Program-made: the position numbers and the translations under genes
Notes under the pieces: model-generated
What the model was told of the DNA's origin: nothing
What the model saw: only the letters and a program-made list of their open reading frames with translations
Database searches by the model: none
Shown here: positions 37,891 to 60,589 of the stretch, piece by piece
Layout of the letters: the number at the start of each line of letters is the position of its first letter
Numbering within the stretch: position 1 is the stretch's first letter
Assembly (NCBI GenBank): GCA_029706075.1
Contig: JAINUG010000328.1
Location: 372,001 to 436,000, forward strand
DNA from: Aldrovandia affinis
Lineage: Eukaryota; Chordata; Actinopteri; Notacanthiformes; Halosauridae
DNA length: 64,000 nucleotides
Reading direction: 5' to 3'

Positions 37891-37898
37891 TATATATG

Positions 37899-38036
37899 CC
37901 ATTTAGCAGATGCTTTTATCCAAAGCGACTTACAGTAGTGAATGCATAATTTTTTCAGTATATGTGGTCCCAGTGGGGATTGAACCCACAACCTAAGCAT
38001 TGCCAACACCATGCTGTACCTACTGAGCCACACAGA
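37899..38036 (-). mobile_element. Short tRNA SINE with L2-type tail
   Basis: On the - strand: A box tggctcagtaggtacagc, B box ggttcaatccc, then directly the tail gtaagtcgctttggataaaa with tgctaaatggca. About 138 bp, compact and well preserved. It begins 8 bp from the end of the neighbouring Tc1 element. Confidence 0.85.
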
Positions 38037-39456: not shown

Positions 39457-39788
39457 TGTGGCGTCCCCAAGGGTTGGGCGACACTCACGGACCTTGCAGG
39501 GGGCGTAGGCAAGTGTAAGAACACAGAGGAGGCAGTAATATGAACAAAAATGATAATTGATTAAACTAACACGAACAAGGGCAACACGAAACAAAGGGTG
39601 GGGTCTTCAGGGGAATACAAACAAAGTCCACAAATCCTTATCTCGTTGTCCAAGTCCGTTCCAATGTCCAAAATCCAGTTCGTAGTCCGCAATCCAGTCC
39701 GTAGTCAAAGTCCAAAACAATCCGATTTCCAACAAACAAACACACTCCAATACGCTCTCCAAATCCTGGCTGGTCCACGACTTCCACA

Positions 39789-39823
<35 letters not shown>

Positions 39824-40086
39824 CTCTCGCTCTCTCGCTCTCTCGCTCTCTCTCTCTCTCTAAACACACCGCACTCCTTCCCCAAACACGTTCCTACTCC
39901 TATCCCAGAACAATGGGATTCAGCCCTTTAAATAGGCCTTCAAAATGGCTTTCAGCTGGTCGTTAGCTCCCCATGCCTGACTTCGTTCAGGTGTTGCGGT
40001 GGCATGCTGGGAAATGTAGTGAAAATGGCTGCCATGTGTTGGAGGCCAGGCAGCCATTTTCTGGTGCAACCCTTTGGGCTGCCACA
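39457..40086 (-). repeat. Left LTR (3' LTR of the retroelement)
   Basis: 630 bp, TG...CA ends. On the - strand it has TATTTAAA at about 39931-39938 as a TATA-like box and a (GA)n tract. The AATAAA present in the other LTR is AATCAA here (39557-39562). Against the right LTR it has three substitutions, about 21 extra bases near 39745 and a longer CT tract. Confidence 0.92.
39931..39938 (-). promoter_or_regulatory. TATA-like box in LTR
   Basis: TATTTAAA on the - strand within the left LTR, about 150 bp from its U3 end. In the right LTR the same site holds the piggyBac insertion. Function is inferred from sequence and position only. Confidence 0.5.
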
Positions 40087-40104
40087 CACCCTCCTCCTCA
40101 GCTC
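40087..40104 (-). promoter_or_regulatory. Polypurine tract
   Basis: On the - strand GAGCTGAGGAGGAGGGTG lies directly against the start of the 3' LTR, where second-strand DNA synthesis is primed in LTR elements. Confidence 0.8.
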
Positions 40105-40353
40105 TGACCTCGGGGAGGGCCGAGCGGCCCATGTCCAGCGGCCACCAGGAGGGCCCCCCTCTCCCGGTCCACCCAGGCAGTGCTCCACCGGGATCAAATG
40201 TCCAGACTCCATTGTCTCCGTTTGCCTGAAAAAACGTCTGCAAACCGTTAGTGAATGGCGAAAGTCGCTCACCTTGTCTGCCCCCAACTGGCCATAAGGG
40301 TGTACCGGCTCTGGGCTCCACGGACGGAGCGGTCACCGCTCCTGTTCTGGTCT

Positions 40354-42315
40354 TCACCAGCCCCCCATGGCTCCTCCGGTATGCTTCAGCCTTTTCCTCC
40401 ACATCCCTTTTTCTTTCAGGGGGTCCGGTGGGGTAACTGGGGAAAAAATGCTCTTCACAACACTGTTACTTTTATTCTTTGATTTATTTTCCACATTTTC
40501 CTTAAAATCCCCCTTCCCTAGCCATTTCCTAGGGTCATCCCATTCCATCATCTGCCGGTTCCGTTTCCCGTTTTTCTTCCGACCAGAATTTCTGCGCTCC
40601 ATTCTTCTCTGTCTTTTTACTGTTGGTGAGGGAGATGGACTTACCACGTCAGGAGAGGGTCGGGTGCTCAAACAGGCCTCGGCCATAATTAGGAGACCTT
40701 CCTCAACACTATGGTCCCACCATAACTCATCCTCTGCCAATTGCTCCTCCAGTTCCCCTCCAAGATCCGGCAGGCTGAGTGGGACTGAGGACCATCTATC
40801 CCGCGCCGACTCCAACGTCTGGTCATGGTCTCCTGCTGGATCTACTGGCTGCGAGATCTCCACCTGGGTGCCAAAATCTTTCCTGACCGGAACACATTTT
40901 ACAAATTCGAGTTCTTCACTCACCTCTTCCAGTTGATCTTGTAGATCCAGCAGAGTCTCGGTCTGGATTTTTAAAACCTCGCGAAAGGATTTCTCTGTGG
41001 CCCGCTGCTGGGCTTCTATCTCCGCCATTTTCCCCTGAAGCTGTGCGGTCTGCTCCAGCTGCAGCTTCTGGACCTGCTCCTGGTGCTCCAGCGCACTCTT
41101 CTCCGCCGTCTCCTCCGCCTCTTTGAGTCCGCGCTCGAACCATCCCTTGGTGCCCTCCATGGACTGGATTTGAGCCTGCAGCTCCTCCACCGTCTGCTGT
41201 AGGCTCTCCAGCTCCCGAGTGCGGGCCTTCTCGTCGCGGAGCTGTGAGCGGATATCCTCCTCGGTGCGGTTCTTGTCCTCGTGCAGGCCGCGCAGCTCCT
41301 TCTCGTAGCGCGCCCCCACGCCCAGCACCTCCTTCTCGTGCTGCAGCCGCGCGTCGCTCAGCTCCTCCTTGTGCCGCGACTTCTCCTGCGCCACGTCGAT
41401 GGCCAGCTCGTCCAGCATGGCCTTGCGCTTGTCCGCCGTCTTCCTGGTTGCCTCCAGCTCCTGCTGGAGTTTGTCCTTCTCTTGGCCCCGTTCAGTCAGC
41501 TGCTCCAGGAGCCGGCTGTTGGCGCAGTTCACCTCCTGCAGCAGGGAGCTGACGTCATCTCTCTGGGCCAGGAGCTTCTCCTGCTCGGTCTGTAGCAACT
41601 GGTTCTGGGCCTTTGCCTGCTCCACGCTCTTCTCCAGCTGGTCACGGAGCTCCTTGAGCTGTTGGCCGTGCTTCTCGGATTCCCCCCTCAAGGCCTTCTC
41701 CTGGACCGCCTGTAGCTCCTGGTTCTGGGCCTTTTCCTGCTCCACGCTCTTCTCCAGCTGGGCCAGCTGCTCTCGCAGGGCGTTGGCCTCGACCTGGTGC
41801 GCATCCCTGCTCTCCTGCTCCACTCGGCACCGGAGTTGCTCTGCCTCGGACGCATGGTTCTCCGCTGCTTTCCTTAGCTCTGCCTCCTTCTGGGCGAGCC
41901 TGGTCTGTGCATCCACCAAGGCCCTGGCATACTCATCTGTGGCCTGGTCCTGGGACTCCTGCATGTCCAGACACTGTCGCTGCTCATTCTCAAGCCTCTG
42001 GGTTAGGTTTCTCACCTGCTCTTTGAGCGCCAAGTTGTGGGACTCTACACGCCTCATCTCATCGCCAAGGGATGCCTTCTCCTTTTCCATCTCCCCAGCC
42101 ATGATTCCCAGCACTCTCAGGGAGTCCAGGTGGTGCTCCTCTTGCAATTTCATCACTGCCAGCAGGTGGCGCTCCTCTGAGGTGTTCAACTCCACCTTTG
42201 CCTTGCACAGCTCAATCTGGGCACTCTGCTTCAGCTGCTGGACCTCACGGAGGGTGACACGCCATCGGTCCTCCACCATGGCTGCCCGTCTCTTCAGTCT
42301 CTGCATCTCTTCCAT
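40354..42315 (-). CDS. Coiled-coil protein encoded by the LTR retroelement
   Basis: Uninterrupted frame ending in TGA at 40354. I choose the ATG at 42315 (A at -3, G at +4; MEEMQRLKRR), giving about 653 residues. The frame is open further upstream to an ATG at 42396 inside the primer-binding site and, without ATG, into the LTR. Residues about 1-473 are almost continuous heptad-type coiled coil rich in Glu, Gln, Lys and Leu. A ~40-residue unit (LEKSVEQ-KAQNQ-LQ) is repeated in tandem (nt 41575-41655 and 41695-41775). About 474-560 is acidic with Ser-Pro runs, about 565-590 is strongly basic (KRQRRMERRNSGRKKNGKR), and the tail is Lys-rich. There is no CCHC knuckle or catalytic motif. I cannot assign a family; weak likeness to intermediate-filament or lamin rods is probably coiled-coil composition. 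It could act like Gag (self-assembly plus basic RNA binding) or be a captured host gene. Function unknown. Confidence 0.75.
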   Translation of the reverse strand: MEEMQRLKRRAAMVEDRWRVTLREVQQLKQSAQIELCKAKVELNTSEERHLLAVMKLQEEHHLDSLRVLGIMAGEMEKEKASLGDEMRRVESHNLALKEQVRNLTQRLENEQRQCLDMQESQDQATDEYARALVDAQTRLAQKEAELRKAAENHASEAEQLRCRVEQESRDAHQVEANALREQLAQLEKSVEQEKAQNQELQAVQEKALRGESEKHGQQLKELRDQLEKSVEQAKAQNQLLQTEQEKLLAQRDDVSSLLQEVNCANSRLLEQLTERGQEKDKLQQELEATRKTADKRKAMLDELAIDVAQEKSRHKEELSDARLQHEKEVLGVGARYEKELRGLHEDKNRTEEDIRSQLRDEKARTRELESLQQTVEELQAQIQSMEGTKGWFERGLKEAEETAEKSALEHQEQVQKLQLEQTAQLQGKMAEIEAQQRATEKSFREVLKIQTETLLDLQDQLEEVSEELEFVKCVPVRKDFGTQVEISQPVDPAGDHDQTLESARDRWSSVPLSLPDLGGELEEQLAEDELWWDHSVEEGLLIMAEACLSTRPSPDVVSPSPSPTVKRQRRMERRNSGRKKNGKRNRQMMEWDDPRKWLGKGDFKENVENKSKNKSNSVVKSIFSPVTPPDPLKEKGMWRKRLKHTGGAMGGW

Positions 42316-42387
42316 CGTGGAGTCTGTTGCACAAACGAAACACAAACCCTGCTGCACTACCTCCTCTTGCCTATCTGTGCTGCCCTC

Positions 42388-42405
42388 TGCCCGCATTCTC
42401 CACCA
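42388..42405 (-). promoter_or_regulatory. Primer-binding site, tRNA-Ala type
   Basis: TGGTGGAGAATGCGGGCA on the - strand, two bases inside the 5' LTR. It is complementary to the CCA end and acceptor/T-arm of vertebrate tRNA-Ala(AGC), recalled as ending GCCCGCATTCTCCA plus CCA; the match runs 18 nt and then stops. It contains an in-frame ATG (42396) for the coiled-coil ORF. Confidence 0.85.
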
Positions 42406-42407
42406 TA

Positions 42408-44526
42408 TGTGGCGTCCCCAAGGGTTGGGCGACACTCACGGACCTTGCAGGGGGCGTAGGCAAGTGTAAGAACACAGAGGAGGCAGTAATATGAACAAAA
42501 ATGATAATTTATTAAACTAACACGAACAAGGGCAACACGAAACAAAGGGTGGGGTCTTCAGGGGAATACAAACAAAGTCCACAAATCCTTATCTCGTTGT
42601 CCAAGTCCGTTCCAAAGTCCAAAATCCAGTTCGTAGTCCGCAATCCAGTCCGTAGTCAAAGTCCAAAACAATCCGATTTCCAACAAACAAACCCCCCTGG
42701 CTGGTCCACGACTTCCACAGGTTTCTCTCTCTCTCTCTCTCTCGCTCTCTCGCTCTCTCGCTCTCTCGCTCTCTCTCTCTCTAAACACACCGCACTCCTT
42801 CCCCAAACACATTCCTACTCCTATCCCAGAACAATGGGATTCAGCCCTTTAACCCTCTGAGGTCCGTGCTAAGCTTTTAGATGTTTTTTGATTTTGGCAT
42901 GGTCTGATATTTATCTCAATTTCATCAATTTAACACACACTTACTCCAAAGTGTTTGATATTTTTATTTGAAGGACAATCACAGCTACATTTGTATGCCA
43001 TCAATAGTTTGGTCAGTATCATATGCAGCTTGTAAATAGATCTACAAACACACAAGTTAAAAATAGTAAATTTTTCTGCTGTCACAAAAGTTGTGAAAGC
43101 ACACACTAAACTATAGTGACGAATTGTTTTGCCAATGTACGTTTGTTCATCAAGGTCTTGGTTATGTAAGGGTGTGAAAACAGTTTAGCACATCTGAGAT
43201 CTAAATAGCTAAAAACCTGTTTTTATCAGAACTGGTCACATTTATTTCAGGCTGTGGGAGGGCTAAATGCTAAATACCTGAATATTCATTATTCATTGTC
43301 CACACCTCTAAGATCTGTCAGATGGGCCATCTCACTGGGCCATCAGTGTTATATTCTGAGTTCCTGTTCTGTTGTTTTTTGGTCTTTGTTTATTTTTCAT
43401 TCAGTCCTTATTCATTATTCTTTATCCAGTATTGCATTTTCCCTGTTCTGTCACGTTCTGCTCCCTGTCTGTCCTTGTTCCGTTTATTTCGAGATCCACT
43501 CCTTGTCGTGTCATGCACTTCGGGAGTTTATACTTTTCGGGGTTTTTTCCGCCTTCGCTTATTATCTCGTTTTCTTCCTTCTTACTTTCTAGATTGCACT
43601 TTGTATATATTAGGTAGATGTGTGTAGTACTAACCAACTAATCTACTAACGTTAGGGGTTTAGATTAAGTTACTAACACGCGGAATATGTTTGGCGTCAC
43701 AAGACGCGGAATCATATATTTTCACGAGTATTTGAAAACAAGCGAAATAAATAACATTTTAGGCTGTTCTTCTTTAGAAAAGTATTCTTCCATAGATCTT
43801 GTGTGCATATTGCAATTTGTTACATTGCAACACGCGGAATATGTAGTCACAAGACGCGGAATTCATATATTGAATATATATACGAGTATTTGATAACATG
43901 GCAAATCAAATATAGTTACTTACTGTTCGTCAGTTATTGTCTTCGCCGCTTTTCATCAATACTCTCAAACACTGCAGCGCAGAAATTCTTTCCATCTTGA
44001 ATAAAATTGTATGTCTGTATAAAATCTTGCTTCAAATTGTCGGGACAGTTTATGTGTTTACGCGGCGTTTTCACACATGGCCCCACGCCCCCCACACCTC
44101 CCGAAACTCGCACCTAGTTACCATGTCAATAGAAGGGGACGTTACTACCAGGTAAAAAAAAGAGAGTAAAAGGCAAGGTTTACTTTTGGTCTAATTAACC
44201 TAATTTAAAAAATCCCATTTGATTTGCCAGTGCTCAAATCGGAAAGTCGCGATTCTAAGGTTTCTGTCAATGTTTTTGTCGCGTGTGTATGATAAAATAT
44301 CGCGAAGTTAGAAATAGTAATATACTTGTATTGCTGCTTGGATCGGCGCCGATCCAGCCGACCTCAGGGGTTAAATAGGCCTTCAAAATGGCTTTCAGCT
44401 GGTCGTTAGCTCCCCATGCCTGACTTCGTTCAGGTGTTGCGGTGGCATGCTGGGAAATGTAGTGAAAATGGCTGCCATGTGTTGGAGGCCAGGCAGCCAT
44501 TTTCTGGTGCAACCCTTTGGGCTGCC

Positions 44527-44529
<3 letters not shown>
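42408..44529 (-). repeat. Right LTR (5' LTR), split by a piggyBac element
   Basis: About 600 bp of LTR sequence in two parts, 42408-42852 and 44371-44529, separated by the piggyBac insertion at TTAA. Rejoined across one TTAA the two parts align end to end with the left LTR. On the - strand it carries AATAAA at 42508-42513. Confidence 0.92.
42853..44370. mobile_element. Non-autonomous piggyBac-type element
   Basis: 1518 bp flanked on both sides by TTAA (42849-42852, 44371-44374), the fixed piggyBac target. Ends are CCCTCTGAGGTC and, on the other strand, CCCCTGAGGTC: CCC-starting inverted ends as in this superfamily. The interior is AT-rich with only short frames and no transposase was recognised, so it is probably moved by a partner's enzyme. 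It sits in the right LTR. Confidence 0.85.
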
Positions 44530-58927: not shown

Positions 58928-60589
58928 TAAATCGGTGCCTCGACCAGGTGGGTTGGTCCCGGAGAATAGTAGCAAATCGTGAGCGAATTCGTGTTTGGCA
59001 ATAGGTAAATTGGCCTAGTATTAGATAGGTAGTACTGAAATTGTATGAAATAGCTAGCTAATCTACATAAAGTAATGACATAAATATTCTGAAAGATTTA
59101 CTTAAACCATAGGCTACTGTAACGTTAGCAAACTAGCGTACTAGTGTTAATTGACTTAAAACATACCATTGGCAAGCGAAAGAACGTGATTTATTGCAAT
59201 TTGTCAAGTTATCACACGAAATTAGTAAATTAGGCTATGGAAACACGACTAGCATTTATTAGTTAACCAGTCAAATTACATGTTTTGTTTGAGCAAGGGC
59301 TTTTTTGCGGTCCATGAGGAAGGATTCGCAAAAGTAAGCATGGCTCAGTTTGATGTGCTCAATTTCATTTCAGCCGGGAAATAATGCCAGAGCAACAGAG
59401 GCGAACTCTTCGCGGCAGCCAAGCTGTCCACAGTCATAGCATATTTCGCGGGAGATTGAGTGCTACAGAGTAAACCACTAGACTTTTTTCACCATTTCCT
59501 TCTTACCGCTTCAAAACTTCCCGCGAGGCACTGAAAGCTAGAGACAAAACAGTAACCACATCTGCGGAAAGCACAAACAAATTAGGGTTAGGCGTTACTC
59601 TGCGAAAAGTTTTAGTTGTGTCGAAGACTTTATAGTGTCTGTGACGTAGGGTTAGCCACACCCCTTGGGTACTACTGACTAAAACCTTCAATATCTGTGC
59701 GTATTTATCCGTGATGTATTGTGTCAAATTGAACCAATACGTTTATAGAGGGTTCTAGAGTCATGCTTGCTCAAGAAAGTAAGCTTAACCAATACAACAT
59801 AAATCATAAAAATAGCACAGTGGTTCCCAAACACATCTATATGTGTTTCAGTTGTACCATATTTTTGGCCCTTCAATTTATTAACGCAATGCAGGTATAG
59901 TTCATTGCCATTTGCGCTGTCTTTTAACTCTTAATTTTCCATAAATGGTTTAGTTTCAGTGATCAGTTGTCCACACTTTCAGAAACTAGGACCCCACTGA
60001 TTTCAACTGCCAGAGTATCGTTTAATCAATGAAAACATGAAACCTATATCTAAAGGAATAATTTCCCGTATAGCACATTACAGAAAATAAAAGCATTAGT
60101 TTATTTGACTGATGTAAAGTCTTGGGATGTGACCATTGGACATTTCTTCTTCTGTGTTGCTTAAGAAGGTACACCATCCCTCAGTATACATTAAAAGTGT
60201 CTGATTAAATGTCCCAGGCAAGTGCCAAAAGCAGATCATTGTGAACCATTTTAGCAGCCACGTTTAAAACTGGAGGGTAAGCTCAATGAACTAGGGTGAA
60301 TTGTATTATTTCTGTATCATGAGATGCCATTTTGGTTGTGACTTGGGGAGATGAAAGTGGACACTTCCAGTTAGCCCACAGAGACAACTGTACAGGCCAG
60401 CCCTGGGGCGCGTCTGTGCTGGAGAGCGTATGTGCTGGAGCGCATCTGTGCTGTGAGTGGCCTGCTCATGCCACTGCTAAAGTGGTCTTTTAAATAGTCA
60501 AGGACACTCTCATCTGGATACCCTGAACCAGTAAATATAGCTAAGAGCAATCACTTTAACAGCTGTTTAAGAATAATTTTCTATATTCA
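58928..60589. other. Unassigned intronic sequence
   Basis: AT-rich with tagctagctaatc-type runs; no gene or named repeat found. Confidence 0.5.

Follow-up and report, generated by a model that had tools for sequence, protein, structure and literature searches.

The locus considered here lies on the − strand at positions 39457–44529 of a 64,000-nt stretch of Aldrovandia affinis DNA (the window), where two LTRs, a tRNA-type primer site, and a polypurine tract form an LTR-element skeleton around one uninterrupted frame. The question it raises is what this single frame encodes, whether it was taken from the host or belongs to the element itself, and how such an element could have been copied.

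Structure of the element

The structural features are as follows.

39457..40086, − strand: 3′ LTR of 630 bp with TG...CA ends
40099–40087, − strand: polypurine tract GAGGAGGAGGGTG, abutting the 3′ LTR (sequence reading)
42405–42389, − strand: primer binding site of 17 nt, TGGTGGAGAATGCGGGC, beginning 2 nt past the 5′ LTR (sequence reading)
42408..42852, − strand: inner piece of the 5′ LTR, beside the primer site, ending at TTAA (42849–42852)
42853–44370, no strand assigned: nested insert of 1,518 bp, bordered at each end by TTAA and having short terminal inverted repeats, not part of the element
44371..44529, − strand: outer piece of the 5′ LTR, starting with TTAA (44371–44374)

The paired direct TG...CA LTRs, the primer site, and the purine tract are the hallmarks of an LTR retrotransposon, and an earlier sequence-only reading of this DNA, which had claimed the same skeleton, is borne out by inspection of the sequence. 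Read on the + strand, both LTRs (39457–40086 and 42408–44529) start with TGTGGC and finish with GCCACA. When the insert is excluded, they differ by three substitutions in 600 aligned bases (pieces of 445 and 159 bases that share the 4-bp TTAA) and by 30 gapped bases, 20 of which lie just before a CT microsatellite and 10 within it. The inner piece of the 5′ LTR shows three substitutions in 445 aligned bases to the 3′ LTR, and the outer piece is identical to it (159/159). An AATAAA poly(A) signal in the 5′ LTR (42513–42508, − strand) reads AATCAA in the 3′ LTR (39557–39562). The primer site TGGTGGAGAATGCGGGC is presumably that of tRNA-Ala; a literature search for tRNA-Ala primer binding sites in fish LTR retrotransposons found no paper. 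The LTRs enclose an internal region of 2,321 bp, and the element occurs once within the window. It is flanked by AT repeats, in which a duplication of 4 or 6 bp (ATAT or ATATAT) fits but one of 5 bp does not, the repeats hiding the exact length.

The nested insert has the inverted ends CCCTCTGAGGTC and CCCCTGAGGTC and, judged from its sequence, carries a piggyBac-type signature; the longest ATG frame listed inside it encodes 101 aa. Of the two LTRs, only the 5′ one contains it, and it is therefore younger than the insertion of the element. Because it interrupts the LTR at 42408–44529, the element proper measures approximately 3.55 kb. The span of 39457..44529 given in the sequence-only reading thus stands for the skeleton but not as an uninterrupted extent.

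Elsewhere in the window, a vertebrate telomerase RNA (Rfam RF00024) was detected at 59283–59612 (− strand) with 75.1 bits over the full model length. There are also two UnaL2 LINE 3′ ends, at 37893–37946 and at 18–70 (− strand), the former adjoining a weak tRNA-like match at 37973–38030.

Open reading frame and its product

The frame and its parts are as follows.

42396–40354, − strand: single ORF of 680 codons, with the first ATG inside the primer site and Met28 as an alternative start (653 codons)
41821..42315, − strand: N-terminal helical part (residues 28–192), predicted helix, all relatives found being Aldrovandia gene models
41590..41820, − strand: helical segment (residues 193–269), comprising most of a 78-bp repeat pair with a spacing of 120 bp (in frame)
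41011..41589, − strand: captured GRIPAP1 segment (residues 270–462), corresponding to native residues 413–605 and 95.3% identical to Aldrovandia GRIPAP1
40357..41010, − strand: residues 463–680, a helix end (QQRATE...) common to some copies, followed by a tail of low confidence that contains a basic patch

The uninterrupted frame of about 653 codons noted previously is the count from Met28; from the first ATG, it has 680. The longest stop-free frame of the internal region is 683 codons, as compared with 227 on average and never more than 504 in 1,000 dinucleotide shuffles. An antisense stop-free frame of 386 codons (41309–42469, + strand) is probably a by-product of biased codon composition.

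Searches against Pfam returned no family for the whole 680-codon protein at E 0.1 and no domain for three pieces of it at E up to 10, the best value of the N-terminal piece (E 0.3) not being meaningful. No gag, protease, RT, integrase, or env family of Pfam was found in the frame, which agrees with the absence of gag, protease, RT, and integrase noted earlier, and neither was a Gag domain or zinc knuckle. Solved structures gave five weak matches at E up to 1, the best of them keratin (E 0.021), whereas the last 180 residues had no match; viral contigs searched with the protein contained no relative. In searches by region, which reach only proteins of similar length sharing short exact words, so that distant sources may escape, residues 20–195 were related to 15 of 1,082 candidate proteins, all of them Aldrovandia gene models, and residues 465–680 to 0 of 999. 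The structure model places helices at residues 26–233, 246–486, and 665–668, in addition to a low-confidence tail (mean pLDDT 68.7, pTM 0.27). The long predicted helices may form a coiled coil. A basic patch is seen in the sequence of the C-terminal tail.

GRIPAP1 origin of the central part

The protein search scored 7,999 candidates, and 1,601 proteins matched at E ≤ 0.001. Fifteen of the best 16 were Aldrovandia affinis proteins, including P0016 (native GRIPAP1), and the rest of the best 120 of the 1,601 were GRIPAP1 orthologues, mostly, or unnamed fish proteins. Residues 270–462 of the frame (193 aa) match residues 413–605 of P0016 (882 aa) with the 95.3% identity given above, and this core is 85.9% identical to eel GRIPAP1. 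By sequence comparison, the middle of the frame is captured from the host gene for GRIP1-associated protein 1 (GRIPAP1/GRASP-1), a coiled-coil protein of endosome trafficking; in the window copy, the demonstrable host-derived share is only about 193 of the 680 residues.

A maximum-likelihood tree of the core was constructed from 16 native rows and 12 element rows (the window copy and 11 of the 17 gene models described below; P0004, P0008, P0013, and P0121–P0123 were left out). The element copies and P0016 form one clade (UFBoot 96), whose sister group consists of Anguilla, Conger, Synaphobranchus, and Gymnothorax; Albula and Megalops branch off outside these. For the element copies by themselves, support as a clade is only 70. 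P0007 and P0015 are on long branches, apparently because parts of these gene models are missing or misaligned, and the branches were not taken as divergence. Since the element copies group with P0016 apart from the other fish, the capture took place in the Aldrovandia lineage after its split from the eels.

The frame could instead be the element's own gag, its likeness to GRIPAP1 reflecting the generic similarity of coiled coils, which commonly match each other; that the N-terminal part matched Aldrovandia models only would suit this. It is nevertheless extremely improbable, given the identity over 193 residues, the placement in the tree beside the native gene of one species, and the orthologues in many fish. 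For the central part, these three observations exclude convergence, and generic coiled-coil similarity is refuted.

The core differs from native GRIPAP1 by nine changes. Of its 193 columns, 109 are invariant across the 16 native sequences, and six of the changes fall at invariant positions, where about five are expected at random; therefore, no purifying selection or preserved host function is visible in the GRIPAP1 part.

Spliced RNA as the captured template

In eight of the 10 GRIPAP1 protein pairs compared, one member lacks a 31-residue block (QVACQ...LAALE) as a unit, as expected of a skipped exon on sequence grounds; two of those eight, P0018/P0019 and P0064/P0081, are on contigs of differing length and are perhaps not isoforms of a single locus. 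The relatives P0007, P0121, and P0123 start within this exon (native residue 366) and run straight into the next (...LER-IQTVK...). From this intronless crossing of a junction inferred from isoforms, it follows that the captured template was a spliced RNA. In the window copy, residues 193–269 occupy the place where these three copies hold GRIPAP1 residues 366–412; the tested junction stretch is thus replaced by another helical segment, and the intronless evidence comes from the three relatives. In these relatives, the captured piece begins at native residue 366 and, in P0007 and P0123, extends to residue 605, with inner stretches missing in each.

The intronless, host-derived sequence in this frame would also be expected of an ordinary LINE-type processed pseudogene of GRIPAP1, and two UnaL2 ends are present in the window; alternatively, a host gene might be flanked by LTRs by chance. 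Both are very improbable. The frame begins inside the primer site, which is exactly in register with the LTRs and the purine tract. Moreover, the captured fragment comes from the interior of GRIPAP1, and both of its ends are fused to sequence that recurs in other copies.

Copies and junction forms in Aldrovandia

The chimera, that is, GRIPAP1 joined to element sequence, was found in at least 17 Aldrovandia gene models (P0001–P0010, P0012–P0015, and P0121–P0123) on at least 16 contigs, a lower bound at the level of annotation. The possibility considered in the sequence-only reading that only one copy exists is therefore not borne out at the protein level. Its proposal of a captured host gene holds for the central part, with regard to GRIPAP1, the spliced RNA, and the many gene-model copies; for the N- and C-terminal parts, the searches by region yielded no source. 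The other chimera copies presumably also lie between these LTRs.

There are at least four junction forms among the copies, some of which may be artefacts, as the models are automated predictions and many run into unrelated genes. The element part is joined to native residue 366 in P0007, P0121, and P0123, to about residue 404 in P0005, to residue 413 in the window copy, P0003, P0009, P0012, and others, and near MNVELQQRQ in P0001 and P0122. These different joins, as well as the support of just 70 for the element-only clade, might point to two or more separate captures of GRIPAP1 and not to one capture followed by rearrangement. We regard separate captures as unlikely: native position 425 is V in 10 of the 12 element rows but L in 16/16 native rows, and an identical C-terminal join (QQRATE) recurs in several copies. 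As to the remaining two element rows, P0007 reads V at this position in another alignment, and P0010 does not contain that stretch.

The chimera is annotated inside doublecortin-, plectin-, methyltransferase-, GalNAc-transferase-, and fibronectin-type-III models (P0008, P0010, P0012, P0014, and P0015), which are either annotation artefacts or exonized insertions; in P0008, it appears to sit between two DCX domains. A set of misleading gene models of Aldrovandia that hold this frame, plectin-like and doublecortin-like ones among them, is probably explained by the element.

Proposed mechanism

The locus is very probably a non-autonomous, pol-less LTR retroelement of a halosaur-type fish that carries captured spliced GRIPAP1 mRNA and was presumably copied to many loci via a helper. 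The ancestral element would have acquired, in frame, at most about 240 codons from the spliced mRNA of GRIPAP1, a figure read from the outer ends 366–605, which no model shows unbroken. Most likely, host GRIPAP1 mRNA was co-packaged with the element RNA and joined to it by template switching in reverse transcription; a template-switching model of mRNA capture is described for LTR-mediated retrocopies in PMC5408686. The pol of the element may have been lost or may never have been present in its lineage. The chimeric RNA would have retained the LTRs, primer site, and polypurine tract, which are the needs of trans-mobilization, and the Gag-Pol of a helper that recognizes the LTRs and primer site may then have spread it in trans to many loci.

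Whether the protein has a function in the element is a separate matter, and on balance, we favor a passenger over a working element protein. A functional product, in which the host-derived coiled coil serves as a Gag-like assembly or RNA-binding scaffold that aids entry into, or the use of, helper particles, has a smaller but appreciable probability; the self-encoded assembly protein proposed in the sequence-only reading is compatible with the long predicted helices and the basic tail. A functional product would be in keeping with an open frame longer than in all 1,000 shuffles, the in-frame spacing (120 bp) of the repeat pair, rearranged forms that stay in frame among the copies, and the long predicted helices with a basic tail. 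However, Pfam shows neither a Gag domain nor a zinc knuckle, and purifying selection on the GRIPAP1 part is not visible, with six of nine core changes at invariant positions. In-frame forms are also favored by the construction of gene models, and the young LTRs would suffice to explain the intact frame.

According to PMC2808209, the interaction of GRASP-1 with Rab4 requires residues 280–300, in the numbering used there, and syntaxin 13 binding requires the C-terminal region. The captured middle of GRIPAP1 probably comprises neither of these binding parts. It is a rather doubtful proposition that the element made a host Rab4-effector coiled coil its structural protein; such a scaffold, derived from GRIPAP1 and provided with a basic tail that binds RNA, would allow an element without pol to assemble together with helper particles or to be brought to them, and its coiled-coil segments would be continually reshuffled in frame between copies.

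Comparison with known systems

Among titles and the openings of abstracts, the literature on GRIPAP1 and retrotransposons described no LTR capture, and that on the Aldrovandia affinis genome contained nothing on the element. TRIM and LARD elements, which are normally non-coding, have LTRs, a primer site, and a purine tract without pol, as here, and the fish element differs from them by its 680-codon frame. In defective oncogene-carrying retroviruses (v-onc, gag-onc), which are LTR-bounded, pol-deleted, and helper-dependent, a host segment is fused in frame to the coding sequence of the element. The N-terminal part of the fish frame, in contrast, is not recognizable as Gag, and we know of no role of GRIPAP1 as an oncogene.

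Maize Bs1 is non-autonomous and reportedly has a hybrid frame. In PMC13317346 and PMC5408686, it is an LTR retroelement with host-gene segments, none of them full-length. Both Bs1 and the present element carry host-gene segments between LTRs, but Bs1 is a plant element with three host genes (H+-ATPase, xylan endohydrolase, and β-1,3-glucanase), whereas one host gene was identified in the fish element. Like a Bs1-type capture, it contains sequence of an identified host gene, has a spliced-RNA source (from three relatives), and forms a multiplied chimera (at the annotation level).

According to PMC4299795, it is relatively uncommon for vertebrate LTR elements to capture host mRNA; the paper presents the crocodilian endogenous retroviruses CrocERV29 (KIT-ligand) and CrocERV31 (nectin3) as LTR elements that took up host mRNA and then multiplied. 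CrocERV29 gained its gene without loss of an ERV domain, and CrocERV31 carries its gene in place of env, whereas no gag, pol, or env was detected in the fish element; the nectin3 of CrocERV31 spans the length of the host gene, and the fish element holds an internal fragment of GRIPAP1. LTR-mediated retrocopies in zebrafish, chicken, mosquito, and Drosophila (Tan and coworkers, cited in PMC5408686) share with it the proposed capture by template switching, but in the fish, the captured sequence ended up within a chimera present in many copies. That LTR elements capture host genes is thus already known; what is new is GRIPAP1 as the donor, in a multi-copy, pol-less fish element. Since the gene that was captured and the lineage in which this happened are both identified, and several forms of the junction exist side by side, capture, rearrangement, and spread could be read from one genome.
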